From NCBI GenBank assembly GCA_963924555.1, contig OZ004583.1, positions 496,001 through 560,000 on the forward strand: a stretch of 64,000 nucleotides of DNA, written 5' to 3'. The notes under the pieces are model-generated. The model had not been told where the DNA came from and did not search any database. It saw only the letters and a program-made list of their open reading frames with translations. This stretch comes from Crambe crambe. Taxonomy: Eukaryota > Porifera > Demospongiae > Poecilosclerida > Crambeidae. Shown here in pieces: positions 3 to 59,900 of this stretch (its first letter is position 1; each line of letters starts with the position of its first letter). Made by a program: the position numbers and the translations under genes.

Positions 3-3000
3 ACAGGTTCCTCCAGCTCTTCTCTCTATGCAGAGACAGTGGACAACAGTGATTTAGCCCAGCAAGTCCTCTCCCTTCTCCTCAGAGTGAGTCCATGCCA
101 CGTCCATATTGAAACTGCCCCCACAATTATCTCTCCTCTAATTCCCTCCTCCTAGCATGTCGGTAACCCCAGGGCAGATGTGAAAGAGTCAATGCAGAAG
201 GCATACCAGGCCTCATTCCTACAGACCCCAAAGAAAAGTATCACCATCAAGAAGTCACAGACTGCCGAGGAGATGTTTGTGGTCACTCTTCGTAAAGTTG
301 TCTTCAATGAGTTGAGTTTTCCTCACGACCTTCGGAACAGTCCAATTTTTGAAGTTTTTTTGAATCACATCTTTCCTGTAAGTGAAAGTCATGTGATTGT
401 AATAGTATAGACTTTACTGTTAGAAAGAGATCTTGCAATAATAGAATCATGTGACTGTCATGTGATGACTATGATAGATCATATGATTATCATGTGACTA
501 TCCACCAAGGTACTGGATCACAACATTGAGTTTGGTCAGACTAAAGGCCTAATTCGCTTCATCCTGAAACTGCTAGGCTACTCAGCTGCCCCGCAGAGTG
601 AGGAGTGCAGTGGCCTACTGCAAGATAGGCAGCTACCAGAGAACGGACCCAGTTATAGTCTGGGAGCTCTCCCTTCTCAGCTACAAGCTCCATGGCTCCG
701 TGTCTTCTTTGTCATCATTTATAAGGTATACTACCTCAGCCAACAAGTGACACTTCCAAGTACACACACTTTAGACCCAGCCTTTTGTGCTTTGTAGAGA
801 GCTTGTCCTCTTTTAGAAGTTATTTAGGTATTTTTAGACTGTCCTTTGTTGAGAGGTTTGTCCTCTTTCAGAGTGTTGAGGTTGCACTGTAGTTGAGGGG
901 TTCGTCCTCTTTTAGAAGTTATTTATACTTTTAGATAGTCCTTTGTTGAGGGATGTTGAGGGGTTTATCCTCTTTCAGAGTGTCACTTTTCCTGCAGTAT
1001 ATCCACAATTGTTCTGACAGTGACTCTGCCCTGCAAAACCTTGACATGAATACGCTGGCTAGCTGGTGCATGCAGATTACCCTAAACTCCCTCGAGGCCC
1101 TCCCCCACGAGTGTCCAGTGCTCAACGGAACAGGGACACGTCCACACCCTGTGCTCCATCGCCAAGTGGAGTCCTTTGAGTATTCTGATAAGATTACAAA
1201 TAGGCGATCCAGAGGAGAGAACCCTGTGATTAGCGAGGGGGGACTAAGTGTAGCTCAGGGAGGAGGGAGAGAGGGGATGCTCACGCCCGTTCCTGAAGAT
1301 CCTAAAAATCAGGAAGATCTCAACCAATCAGATTCCGAGACCACTGAATCTGATGATCATGTGACCAGCCCTCTCAGAGCTAGAGGAAGAGGAGGGAGTT
1401 TTGATAAGAACGATAGTGGTGGTGCTACTTATTGGGATGATCATGTGACCAGCCCTCTTCGGGGAGGGGAGACCTCGGAGCAATCAGAGAAGAAAGGTAA
1501 GTATGCAAGAGAATTACTGAAACTATTAATCTTGTTGGACTGTGACTCAGCTCCAGCTCCGACCCCGTCCTCCCACCCGTGGACACAAGAACCACCCATT
1601 GGGAGGTGTGTCGTGTGTGGGAACCCGACTAACGAGTTTTCAGAGGAAGTAGTAGCACTTTGTTCGGTGGCCATCGGGACATTTTGCAACCGTCTTCCTC
1701 ACATGGTTCCACGCTACCTCGTCTCCAGAATCATCCCTGCTATTGCCAAGTGAGTCCATCCAAGACTGTTTGTTTGTTTGTTTGTTTGTTTGTTTGTTTG
1801 TTTGTTTAGAGTGTGAGTCCAGGTGGCAAATTGTTTTTTTTTTTTATGTTTAGAGTGGTGAGCCCAGGGTTCTACACCTGGCAAAAGTTCAACATCTCCA
1901 ACAACAACCCTTTACCAGGTTCAGCATCAGCCGTGGCACAGCACCTCCTTGCTTCTATCCTCACACAGTTTGGAGAGCGACGACTCTTTCTCTATCTCTT
2001 TGGGTACAACCATGACACCCTCAAGGAAGCCGTCTTCTCTGGCATTGCTGGGTCACTCGAGGACATGGAAGGGGAAGTCCCTGCTGATCAAACTGGAGGA
2101 GGAGATAAAGAAGGAGAAGAACAATTGTGTCACACTTCACCAATCAAATATTTTTTAGAGGTACAGAATCTTCTCTGTGTGCAAATTAATCTTTCCTTTA
2201 TTCTCAAACTAATTGAAATCTGAAAATAGGATTTAGGGCCTCTTAAAACAACAAACAAACAAACAAACAAACAAACAAACAAACAAACAAACAAACATAA
2301 AACTGTCTATACTGTACAGGATGCAAACTCATCACCGCATTTCAACCAAGACGTATCGAAGTACTCCTTCATCAATCTGGCGGCCTATCTTGAAGCCCTT
2401 GATAACATTCGTAGTCAGGCTCTGGCCACGGCTCCACCCATCTCTCTGAGTCGTGATCTCCTCCTGTGGGATGTGTTCCTCAAGAAGGTAAAGGGTCACA
2501 CTGAGATTCTGAGGAGCAGGAAAGCTGTCAAGTCTCTATTTCAAATCATCATTAGACTCTTCCAGTATACCATAGATTACCAGGTAAATCCAGTATACTA
2601 TGACCAGACACTCCTAGTATACTGAATCTAGATTCTAGTATACTGAATTCCAGTATACCAGATGTTTGTTTGTTTGTTTGTTCGTTCGTTTGTTGTTTTC
2701 TAGCTTCCCCAGTACTCGTTGAGCAACTACAAGGCACACGCAGTGCAAAGTGTGATCCAGTCCCTCACTGCCATCCTGGAGACAGCACTCCACAACGTCT
2801 ATTGTCCCTTAGGAGGCATAGTCATGCTGGGGGGCCTTTGGTACAAGGTCTTTCAGCAACATAGCCACAGGGTAGGTCACATGGTAGTCATAGGACGGAA
2901 GTGAATATAATTTTCACCATCTTGACAGGAGTCAGAGAAATTGGTGAAGCTGCTGATCTACGAGTTAAGAAAGGCCTTAAAAGCAAAGACAACTACAGTG

Positions 3001-56985: not shown

Positions 56986-59900
56986 ATGTCTTCGAGGAGC
57001 TATCAGGCAGACTCTGCTACAGTTAGGAAAGGTTAGCATTTCAAGCTTAGCAGAACTACTGGTCCCGTGTAGAGAGTTAGTTCTATTGTCGTGTGGTATT
57101 GATAGACTTCTAACACCGCTTGTAAAAGTCCATGTTTGCTAGTTAGCCCAATTATTGTCTCATGCAACACACAGTGAAAGCTGTTCAGGCCAGGAAGAAG
57201 AGGCTAAAAGGGAAGAATTATAAGAAGCCTCACACTTTATCAACACCTGAGGCCCACAAAGGAGGCAAAGCAACAAATGACAGGTAGGTGGGCTTCATTT
57301 CGAATTTACCATGCAGCTGCAACCTGTGTGCTGTTACTAATAGGGATTCCACCGAGTCTTCAGACTCCTATGATGAGGATGAGAGTGACACATGTTGCAG
57401 TAGTGATGAGGATGAACAGGAAGATCCAAAAGACTACCACAAAGGTGAGATATGGCAGGGTTGGCTTTAGACTCTAATAGAATATCATTAGAGTTGGTCA
57501 TAACAAAATTTAGTTGGATAAAAGGATTTCTTTCTATATTTGGTATCCTATGGTTTCAAGCAACAGCTGTAAGTAATATTATGGAAAGTTGTAATCAAAT
57601 TGAGAGTCATGTTACTCACTTATAGTGGCTTTATATGTTAATTCTGTGTCACCAACTGGTGTTCATGTATGCTACAATCATATCATACATCATCGGGGCT
57701 GCACAGAGAGGTTCACTTATTCTAGACCTACTTGATTTTCTCCCTTGTTATATACTCTGTAGGTGGCTATCACCCTGTGGAAATAGGTGACATTTATAAC
57801 AATCAGTATAGGATTATACGTAAGTTAGGTTGGGGCCACTTCTCCACTGTCTGGCTGAGCTGGGACACAAAGTAGGTCTTTTTAAATTTAATTTAATCGA
57901 TTTTGCAGCTAATTTTTTTTCTATCTTTCTATTATAGACATTATCGTCATGTGGCACTCAAAATTGTCAAGTCAGCAAAACACTACACTGAAACTGCCAT
58001 TGATGAGATTGAACTATTGAAAAAGGTCTTTGAGATATAATTATGAAAGAAAATGTCCAATGGGACAATCCATGCCATCCCTACTTAGAGAGTACACTAT
58101 CGTACTCTCTGATAGTGCAGTGCAGTGTAAATATACCGACTTTGGTCCTTGGTGAATAATCTTGTGTCCCTAGGGGGAAGTGGCCTATTACTGATGTTGA
58201 CTAATACTTTTTTTGTTATTTTGGGACCTTGAGGTAGTCTCAAATTGTGGACATTTTGGGAATATTGAAGCAAGGTGGTGGGACTTATCCATAGGAAACA
58301 AAAGGGTAGATAACTTTTAAAATATGCTGGCTTGATATTTTGTGGATATTCATAATACTTATATATTTTCACTTTAGGTGGCAGATTCAGACCCTCAGAA
58401 TCCTGGCTGGAAACATGTGGTCCAAATGTACGATAGCTTCAAGTTGATTGGTCCTTATGGATCTCGTATCCACAACAATTAGCTTGCCCCAATTGGATCA
58501 GTAACGTTGTGTAACTTCTAGCCAGTGAAATGGGAAGATCCAATTTCTTAACTCAAAATCAATAGACATGTGCATGGTTTTTGAAGTGCTTGGCCACAAC
58601 CTCCTCAAGCCGATCATCAAGACTAATTACAGGGGGCTGCCCATGACGGCAGTGAAGTCCATTACGCGGCAAGTTCTCCTAGGAGTGGACTACCTCCACA
58701 GGCAGTGCAAGATCATTCACACTGACATAAAACCTGAGAACATTCTTATCAGTATCAGTGAAGATCATATCAAACAGCTGGCCATAGCTGGTGCTAAGTC
58801 AAAATCATCAGGTATGTGTATTGTAAAGCAGTTAAAAAATAATATTACTTTTTTTTCCCCCTCTCTCCTCCCCCTACCTCCCCTGTCTTCCCTCCTCTCC
58901 CCCTCCCCCCTCTAAGTGAGTACTGCTCCTCCGATAGTGACTGCACCCTCCCAGAAGCAAGGCCTGACAAAGAACCAGAAGAAGAAGCTGAAGAAAAAGA
59001 TGAAGAAGGCACTGCAGCAATCCTTAGAAGATCAAGAACAGGAAGGTGACAAGAAAAACACCAACACCAACAACCCAGCAGATATAGTTTTAGACCAGCA
59101 ACACCACAAAGGTCTGGTCAAAGGTTCGCCGAGAACTTGACAAATTTTACATGCCCAAGATGGTGTGTTTTCTTACAAACATCAGAAAATGGTGATGTTA
59201 TGGACATGGTTGTCACTACTGGACTGAGCACCTCAGATAAGCCCACTCTAGAGGAACGGAACCAAACAGAGGTTAGTCCTAGTCCCATGTCAGAGGGATC
59301 TCCAACGCAGGAAGGTGTGGTTAGTCAAGCTACGGTCAAGCAGGAGAAAGAGAACAGGGAGAATGAAGAGAAGGAGAAGGTAGATGATGCAAAGGAAAAG
59401 GAACCAGATAAAGAGGAGAAAGAGGATATCGCCAAATGGGGCCCATTCAAAGTCCCTGTAACTGTTAAAATAGCCGATCTTGGCAATGCGTGTTGGGTGG
59501 TAAGTCCACTTGTTTTTAATACAGTGATAGTAATGTCTCGTGTGGAACTTTGATAGGATCATCACTTCACAGACGATATTCAAACCAGACAGTATCGGTG
59601 TCTGGAGGTACTGATTGGAGCTGGCTATGGGACACCTTCAGATGTATGGAGTATAGCTTGTATGGTATGTAACAGTGGTATGTTACAGTATAGCTTGCAT
59701 GGTATGTTATAGTGGTATGTTACAGTATAGCTTGCATGGTATGTTACAGTGGTATGTTACAGTATAGCTTGCATGGTATGTTACAGTGGTATGTTACAGT
59801 ATAGCTTGCATGGTATGTTACAGTGGTATGTTACAGTATAGCTTGCATGGTATGTTACAGTGGTATGTTACAGTATGGTATGTTACAATAATACAGAGAA

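Follow-up and report, generated by a model that had tools for sequence, protein, structure and literature searches.

CT and CT-rich repeats are enriched at predicted acceptor sites, with the pyrimidine strand in the RNA, in the sponge Crambe crambe

In human genes, short tandem repeats within 100 bp of exons show a bias towards the T-rich strand (accessible sections of PMC13174678), and long AG exclusion zones occur with the branch point at their upstream end (accessible sections of PMC1431707). In the interval that holds the polypyrimidine tract, selection is reported to favor pyrimidines and, jointly, to disfavor a premature AG (accessible sections of PMC10946897). Here we describe simple repeats beside predicted acceptors (3' splice sites) in a 64,000-nucleotide stretch of the demosponge Crambe crambe (GenBank assembly GCA_963924555.1, contig OZ004583.1, here contig C5, positions 496001-560000), which is called the window below. 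In the window and in further sequence from the same genome, CT and CT-rich repeats are enriched at acceptors, with the pyrimidine strand in the RNA. These acceptor repeats are probably expanded polypyrimidine tracts of the predicted introns.

The assembly comprises 143.1 Mb in 119 contigs, and the genome is of animal type, intron-rich and compact. We analyzed a 314-kb sample consisting of the window, 200 kb of adjoining sequence, and 50 kb of contig C1, the latter 250 kb serving as held-out sequence. Tandem repeats were located with Tandem Repeats Finder (TRF), and genes were predicted with a self-training, RNA-free gene finder written for this analysis. In run A, acceptors were scored at positions -3 to +1 only, so this run was blind to pyrimidine tracts; in run B, the acceptor model was widened back to -24. 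The two runs predicted 396 and 455 introns (median length, 146 and 155 nt), respectively. Because run A loses or moves some acceptors beside repeats, run B was used for single sites and both runs for statistics. The null for distances placed repeats at random within their own intron.

Repeats with a sense pyrimidine strand were concentrated at acceptors. The number lying within 15 nt of an acceptor was 18 of 53 in run A (7.6 expected; P = 4e-5) and 27 of 62 in run B (8.8 expected). The window alone gave 13 of 22 versus 4.1 (run B) and 10 of 20 versus 3.8 (run A), and the held-out 250 kb gave 14 of 40 versus 4.7 (run B) and 8 of 33 versus 3.8 (run A; P = 0.024). For purine-sense repeats, the corresponding counts were 1 of 18 versus 1.4 expected (run A) and 1 of 24 versus 1.7 (run B).

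We also counted perfect arrays of at least 12 nt per kb by intron zone. In run A, the density of sense-pyrimidine arrays was 1.12 per kb in the acceptor zone, 0.28 in the intron interior, and 0.30 in the donor zone, and that of purine arrays was 0.20, 0.23, and 0.41, respectively. Across both runs, pyrimidine arrays reached 1.12-1.28 at the acceptor versus 0.28-0.31 in the interior, and purine arrays 0.18-0.20 versus 0.23-0.26; mixed arrays were thinner at the acceptor (0.25 versus 0.51 in the interior). The excess therefore consists of sense-pyrimidine arrays and is located at the acceptor. The same pattern appeared in the ratio of pyrimidine to purine arrays in run B: 29:4 in the acceptor zone, 8:10 in the donor zone, and 24:20 in the interior. 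Depletion of purine repeats near acceptors left no measurable sign in the distance or density counts of either run, although these counts have low power.

Orientation was also associated with length. Run B placed the 25 CT/GA tracts of at least 16 nt as 16 intronic sense, 8 intronic antisense, and 1 intergenic; 10 of the 16 sense tracts were at least 100 nt long versus none of the 8 antisense tracts, the longest of which was 74 nt (P = 0.0013). Run A placed the same tracts as 12 sense, 5 antisense, and 8 intergenic (P = 0.007), with three of the eight intergenic tracts exceeding 100 nt. Where such repeats adjoin the acceptor, the predicted intron has a sense pyrimidine-rich stretch directly 5' of its terminal AG, as in the polypyrimidine tract of a U2-type 3' splice site.

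Pattern searches across the whole assembly, which use no gene models, gave an independent view through the proxy CAGG. Search rows that start inside a repeat are overcounted; we therefore used only rows starting at the nonrepetitive end, or hand counts of distinct sites from full lists. Within 0-8 nt before CAGG, (CT)10 occurred 125 times and (GA)10 45 times (P = 7e-10), whereas with the control 4-mer GTCC in place of CAGG the counts were 31 and 33 (CAGG versus control, Fisher P = 5e-4). At a length of 28 units, where one register per tract was tested, exact (CT)28CAGG was found at 57 loci on 18 contigs, compared with 9 for its mirror (GA)28GTCC. (GA)28CAGG was found 0 times; its built-in control, (CT)28GTCC, was also found 0 times, so register matters and (GA)28GTCC is the fair mirror of the 57 loci.

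Sequence 3' of these CT tracts resembles exons. Every third of the 57 loci was scored (19 loci), and the 19 plus-strand matches listed first in the (GA)10 search served as controls; two of these controls (L055 and L056) are identical in sequence after CAGG, and the one GA locus lacking any scored exon was entered as a miss. The exon score exceeded the 95th percentile of 800 nonexonic CAGG sites at 14 of 19 CT loci versus 1 of 19 GA loci. Against a null that includes exonic CAGG sites, 3 of 19 CT and 0 of 19 GA loci lay above the 90% line, and CT scores were higher than GA scores (P = 3e-5). Pfam matches at E <=0.1 were obtained for 5 of 10 CT peptides, hand-picked from the 19 by length and look (one match above the curated cut-off, two weak at E 0.03-0.04), and for 0 of 7 GA peptides. 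By the same proxy TTTG showed no bias, with 24 distinct loci versus 20 for CAAA by hand count of the full lists; start-anchored rows alone gave 8 versus 11, and several of the 20 CAAA loci are variants of the repeat itself. By this proxy, the unequal orientation that the first-pass annotation of the window had predicted genome-wide was borne out for CT, and TTTG came out near equality. On contigs C2, C4, and C7 we found none of the 57 (CT)28CAGG loci, nor any among the matches listed in the other pattern searches; these contigs may be short or of other origin.

In the window, the repeats beside or near predicted acceptors, together with those set apart from them, are as follows.

1767-1807, plus strand: (TTTG)10 in the UNC79-like gene, sense, located by TRF, not abutting (46 nt before the intron end, AG 1852-1853)
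2246-2297, plus strand: (AAAC)13 in the same UNC79-like gene, sense A-rich, 22 nt before the intron end (next exon at 2320)
2663-2698, plus strand: (TTTG)9 preceding two in-frame acceptors, AG 2702-2703 and AG 2711-2712
12654-13061, minus strand: pyrimidine-rich UPF2 intron, acceptor AG 12646-12647
13890-13966, minus strand: imperfect (TTTG)n in UPF2, tandem array at 13890-13962, 8 nt to the intron end
24298-24339, plus strand: (TC)n then (CCCT)n, 9 nt to the intron end at 24348
25813-25843, plus strand: (TTTG)8, 4 nt to the intron end at 25847
26694-26718, plus strand: (TTTG)6, 3 nt to the intron end at 26721
27536-27912, plus strand: perfect (TC)188 abutting acceptor AG 27913-27914
34211-34347, minus strand: perfect (CT)68 in the ALAS gene, abutting acceptor AG 34209-34210
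38554-38882, plus strand: CCCTTC-rich repeats in a BRPF intron, sense-pyrimidine, at least 58 nt from the acceptor
41472-41518, plus strand: (GA)23, purine-sense, 122 nt from the acceptor
43525-43613, plus strand: 18-nt CT-rich array in a BRPF intron, 11 nt to the intron end at 43624
50578-50766, minus strand: CT-rich arrays in a 222-nt intron, the nearest (50578-50615) 13 nt from the intron end
56922-56963, plus strand: A42 beside a predicted acceptor that we doubt
58856-58914, plus strand: CCT-rich stretch in a kinase-like gene, ending at the acceptor

The CT and TTTG arrays are microsatellites (perfect short-unit tandem arrays by TRF), and the UPF2 36-mer array is a minisatellite. The first-pass annotation had reported that such repeats abut acceptors; most indeed end 2-13 nt from the intron end, and several lie farther away. 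Both (CT)n tracts, at 27536 and 34211, end 2 nt from it, and the distances listed above agree with the abutting positions claimed for CT/CT-rich repeats at 24300-24340, 43515-43620, and 50570-50780. In UPF2, the 36-base unit is real, but the array proper (12705-13013) stops 59 nt short of the intron end; the gap contains a smaller CT-rich array (12654-12701), itself 8 nt from that end. At 58850-58915 the pyrimidine stretch reaches the acceptor, but the TRF array covers only 58856-58881, 35 nt away, the remainder being unarrayed pyrimidine. The purine-sense (GA)n at 41470 is, as claimed, away from the acceptor.

The TTTG part of the pattern fared less well. Repeats before acceptors 13882, 25847, and 26721 lie within 3-8 nt, whereas the array before 1853 does not reach its acceptor. 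An AG stands immediately 3' of that array, and a T-run separates the array from the used acceptor. The acceptor region is duplicated: at 1803-1823 and again 44 nt downstream, at 1847-1870, TGTTTAGAGTG leads into a similar stretch, so the first TTTG repeat directly adjoins what is almost a second copy of the used acceptor. An AG is present at acceptor 2703, but a second in-frame acceptor lies 9 nt downstream, and both runs choose that one. Perfect TTTG arrays of at least four copies in the window number three at acceptors and one at a donor in sense, and one and one in antisense. The original observation holds for CT and CT-rich repeats and is overstated for TTTG.

Exon edges in the window could be compared with solved homologues for UPF2, BRPF, ALAS, and the UNC79-like gene; agreement was good in three genes and weak in one. 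The UPF2 alignment crosses the 36-mer intron without a gap, the BRPF alignment runs without interruption over the intron at 43.5 kb, which falls within the PWWP domain, and ALAS2 homology begins 2-3 residues downstream of (CT)68. A weak alignment (E 3e-4) spans the first TTTG intron of the UNC79-like gene. From their translations, we take further genes of the window to encode a ferritin, histone H2B, a cortactin-binding-protein-like protein, a bHLH protein, and an SRPK-like kinase.

A tandem duplicate at ~712-720 kb of contig C5 allowed one intron to be compared in two copies. The two compared exons are 96% and 95% identical. One copy of the intron has (TC)119; in the other, TTG/TTTTG runs are followed by ~7 TTTC units. 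These differing repeats share an upstream flank and a similar 3' end and thus occupy the same slot. In the preceding intron, (ATTT)n plus TTTG stands before the last pyrimidines in one copy only. From the aligned sequences, we read the presence of different AG-free, pyrimidine-rich repeats in one slot as change since the duplication.

Long repeats at the acceptor also lengthen the zone that lacks AG. Among the 455 run-B introns, 15 have more than 44 nt free of adenine directly at the acceptor and nine have more than 100 nt, the longest such run being the 377 nt of (TC)188. In those nine predicted introns, the AG-free zone measured 144-380 nt, as in introns with distant branch points, against a sample median of 28 nt and a 95th percentile of 86 nt. 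The sample maximum was 418 nt, which on reading the sequence we take to be the UPF2 intron. With adenine-free runs of up to 377 nt, the branch point must lie upstream of the run if the following AG is used. Four fixed branch-point motifs were sought 5' of the tracts; the loosest was found in 13 of 15 introns versus 54% (P = 0.009, uncorrected), and the other three were not enriched. Expectation maximization had converged on a pyrimidine motif instead, and these fixed motifs took its place.

These features suggest the following sequence of events. The stretch between branch point and AG is pyrimidine-rich and AG-poor, so CT- and T-rich seeds for slippage would be available there, and a short polypyrimidine tract could expand by slippage within it. 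Growth of sense-pyrimidine repeats would be tolerated because the repeat still serves as a pyrimidine tract and brings no premature AG. The branch point would be displaced upstream, with splicing still selecting the first AG 3' of the repeat. From the arrangement we infer that the repeats arose by slippage, that the branch points are remote, and that such introns are spliced normally. The broader proposal is tentative: in this lineage, the branch point-AG interval may act as a nursery for CT microsatellites, which would arise there, lengthen to hundreds of bases, and give way to other pyrimidine repeats lacking AG, with dozens to hundreds of ordinary introns spliced across branch point-AG distances of 100-400 nt. 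Of the two interpretations first offered for the window, that polypyrimidine tracts seed microsatellites is the better half: it fits the ~4-fold acceptor density of sense-pyrimidine arrays and the slot difference between paralogues. The other, that selection keeps only the pyrimidine orientation, is not demonstrated: purine arrays show no measurable depletion near acceptors.

Several results weigh against expanded polypyrimidine tracts as the explanation. The branch-point motif CTRAY was found 5' of the tracts in only 1 of 15 introns and is among those not enriched. Non-pyrimidine repeats near acceptors were not clearly distinguished by AG-free status (P = 0.35-0.50). Mixed repeats also lay within 15 nt of acceptors more often than expected in run B (11 of 87 versus 6.6, P = 0.04; 8 of 75 versus 6.3 in run A), and when arrays of all kinds were pooled in introns of at least 180 nt, the acceptor segment was about level with the interior (0.080 versus 0.069 per 60-nt segment). 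The sense A-rich (AAAC)13 of the UNC79-like gene is a counterexample, and its absence from the first-pass list leaves that list incomplete. Run A moved acceptor 27914 to 27939 (25 nt downstream of the one that (TC)188 abuts) and 58916 to 58937, and acceptor 12647 was absent from it. Genome-wide, exact (CT)10AG (223) is rarer than its mirror GA(TC)10 (330), which is an imperfect null. With the donor motif GTRAGT 20-50 nt before the tract, counts were 188 for CT and 231 for GA (P = 0.04; control 6-mer, 131 and 89), the GA side being rich in compound repeats such as GTGAGTGAGAGA. A donor-anchored hand count over C1:1-2.87 Mb gave 20 CT versus 8 GA loci (binomial P = 0.036), opposite to the genome-wide totals. 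Given the conflicting directions and the many compound repeats among the GA loci, neither donor-anchored figure is relied upon. A further donor-anchored test with AGGTAAGT gave 12 versus 12 distinct sites. The genome-wide donor-anchored counts thus show no orientation bias towards CT and provide no donor-side confirmation, which fits the flat donor zone of the intron density count.

At some sites a GTAAGT donor runs straight into (CT)n (C8:160029-160078, C8:2692843-2692914, C6:4163908-4163951, and others). These look as if whole introns were almost purely repeat.

Other accounts of the orientation were weighed against the same data. Repeats might arise anywhere, with selection removing purine-sense ones near acceptors, where they would break the tract and add AGs. 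The run-B length difference fits such a filter, since antisense CT tracts stop at 74 nt and none of the 8 is as long as 100 nt, versus 10 of 16 sense tracts. So does the rarity with which (GA)10 before CAGG precedes an exon (1 of 19). Filtering by itself would produce depletion rather than an excess, so the ~4-fold excess of sense-pyrimidine arrays counts against it; purine density at acceptors is moreover close to that of the interior (0.20 versus 0.23 per kb in run A), and 1 purine repeat was seen against 1.4 expected, at low power. We consider this filter unlikely. An effect of transcription, with repeat growth skewed throughout the intron according to which strand is transcribed, seems more improbable still. 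All ten run-B tracts of at least 100 nt are sense-pyrimidine, three of them away from acceptors, as it would predict; run A, however, classes three of the ten as intergenic, the donor zone and interior are unbiased where the acceptor zone is strongly biased, and the even outcome of the AGGTAAGT test also speaks against it.

It is very improbable that inserted elements, such as introners or retrotransposon tails, delivered repeat and acceptor together. The TTTG and AAAC runs do resemble the tails of non-LTR (non-long terminal repeat) elements, but the two paralogues carry different motifs in one slot, and the repeat-bearing introns, once masked, had no other matches within the 314 kb (E 1e-3) except for intron 24467-25157 and paralogous introns; apart from these, the shared intron sequence by which such elements are recognized was not found in the sample. 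An artefact of gene prediction or assembly we likewise regard as a slim prospect. The gene models are self-trained and RNA-free, and long CT runs are hard to assemble, so their lengths are perhaps off. Even so, the effect persists in models that have no pyrimidine term, exon edges agree with homologues (well in three genes, weakly in one), and the genome-wide counts are independent of gene models. Expanded polypyrimidine tracts remain our preferred explanation of the acceptor repeats.

The window holds other features outside this pattern. The 9-mer ATCATGTGA occurs 16 times versus 1.04 expected by chance, singly and in a 21-nt array (446-497, 1356-1448, 11960-12077, 29587-29628, 52675-52767, and others). 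At 31180-36103 on the minus strand, a gene that we take to be ferritin-like adjoins ALAS, both being iron/haem genes. In the presumed 5' untranslated region of the ferritin-like gene, at ~31955-31991 on the minus strand, is a hairpin in which a 5-pair stem, with a C upstream, is capped by a CAGUGA loop. It looks like an iron-responsive element; a search of this hairpin against Rfam gave no match, and its fold is not unusual. A tRNA-Arg gene (anticodon CCT) lies at 51136-51208 on the plus strand, opposite a minus-strand gene predicted at 46863-52634.

If acceptor repeats are expanded tracts, the origin of one microsatellite class is tied to a splicing signal. There would then be natural introns in which branch point and acceptor are far apart with only CT between them, a ready-made distance series that would allow in vivo measurement of how far AG scanning reaches and how much tract length splicing tolerates. 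For annotators of such genomes, acceptors may hide behind long repeats, which are often masked.

Our literature search found no paper on CT microsatellites abutting acceptors genome-wide. The human repeat bias study (PMC13174678), in its accessible sections, excludes units with a G+C content of 50% or more and hence leaves CT untouched; unlike the human bias, the sponge sequence has CT tracts of up to 377 nt directly at the AG, and such repeats differ between paralogues. The study on base composition (PMC10946897) chiefly concerns Drosophila, and its main text nowhere uses the term "microsatellite". The human AG exclusion zones (accessible sections of PMC1431707) resemble the introns described here in their long AG-free stretch before the acceptor, and one human zone is attributed to a repetitive element lacking AG. 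That zone is dismissed there as unrelated to splicing, whereas here a simple repeat makes the AG-free zone in ~2% of predicted introns (9 of 455). What looks new in the sponge is the extent: the pyrimidine tract itself would be a perfect CT array 60-380 nt long, and differing repeats occupy the same slot in young paralogues.

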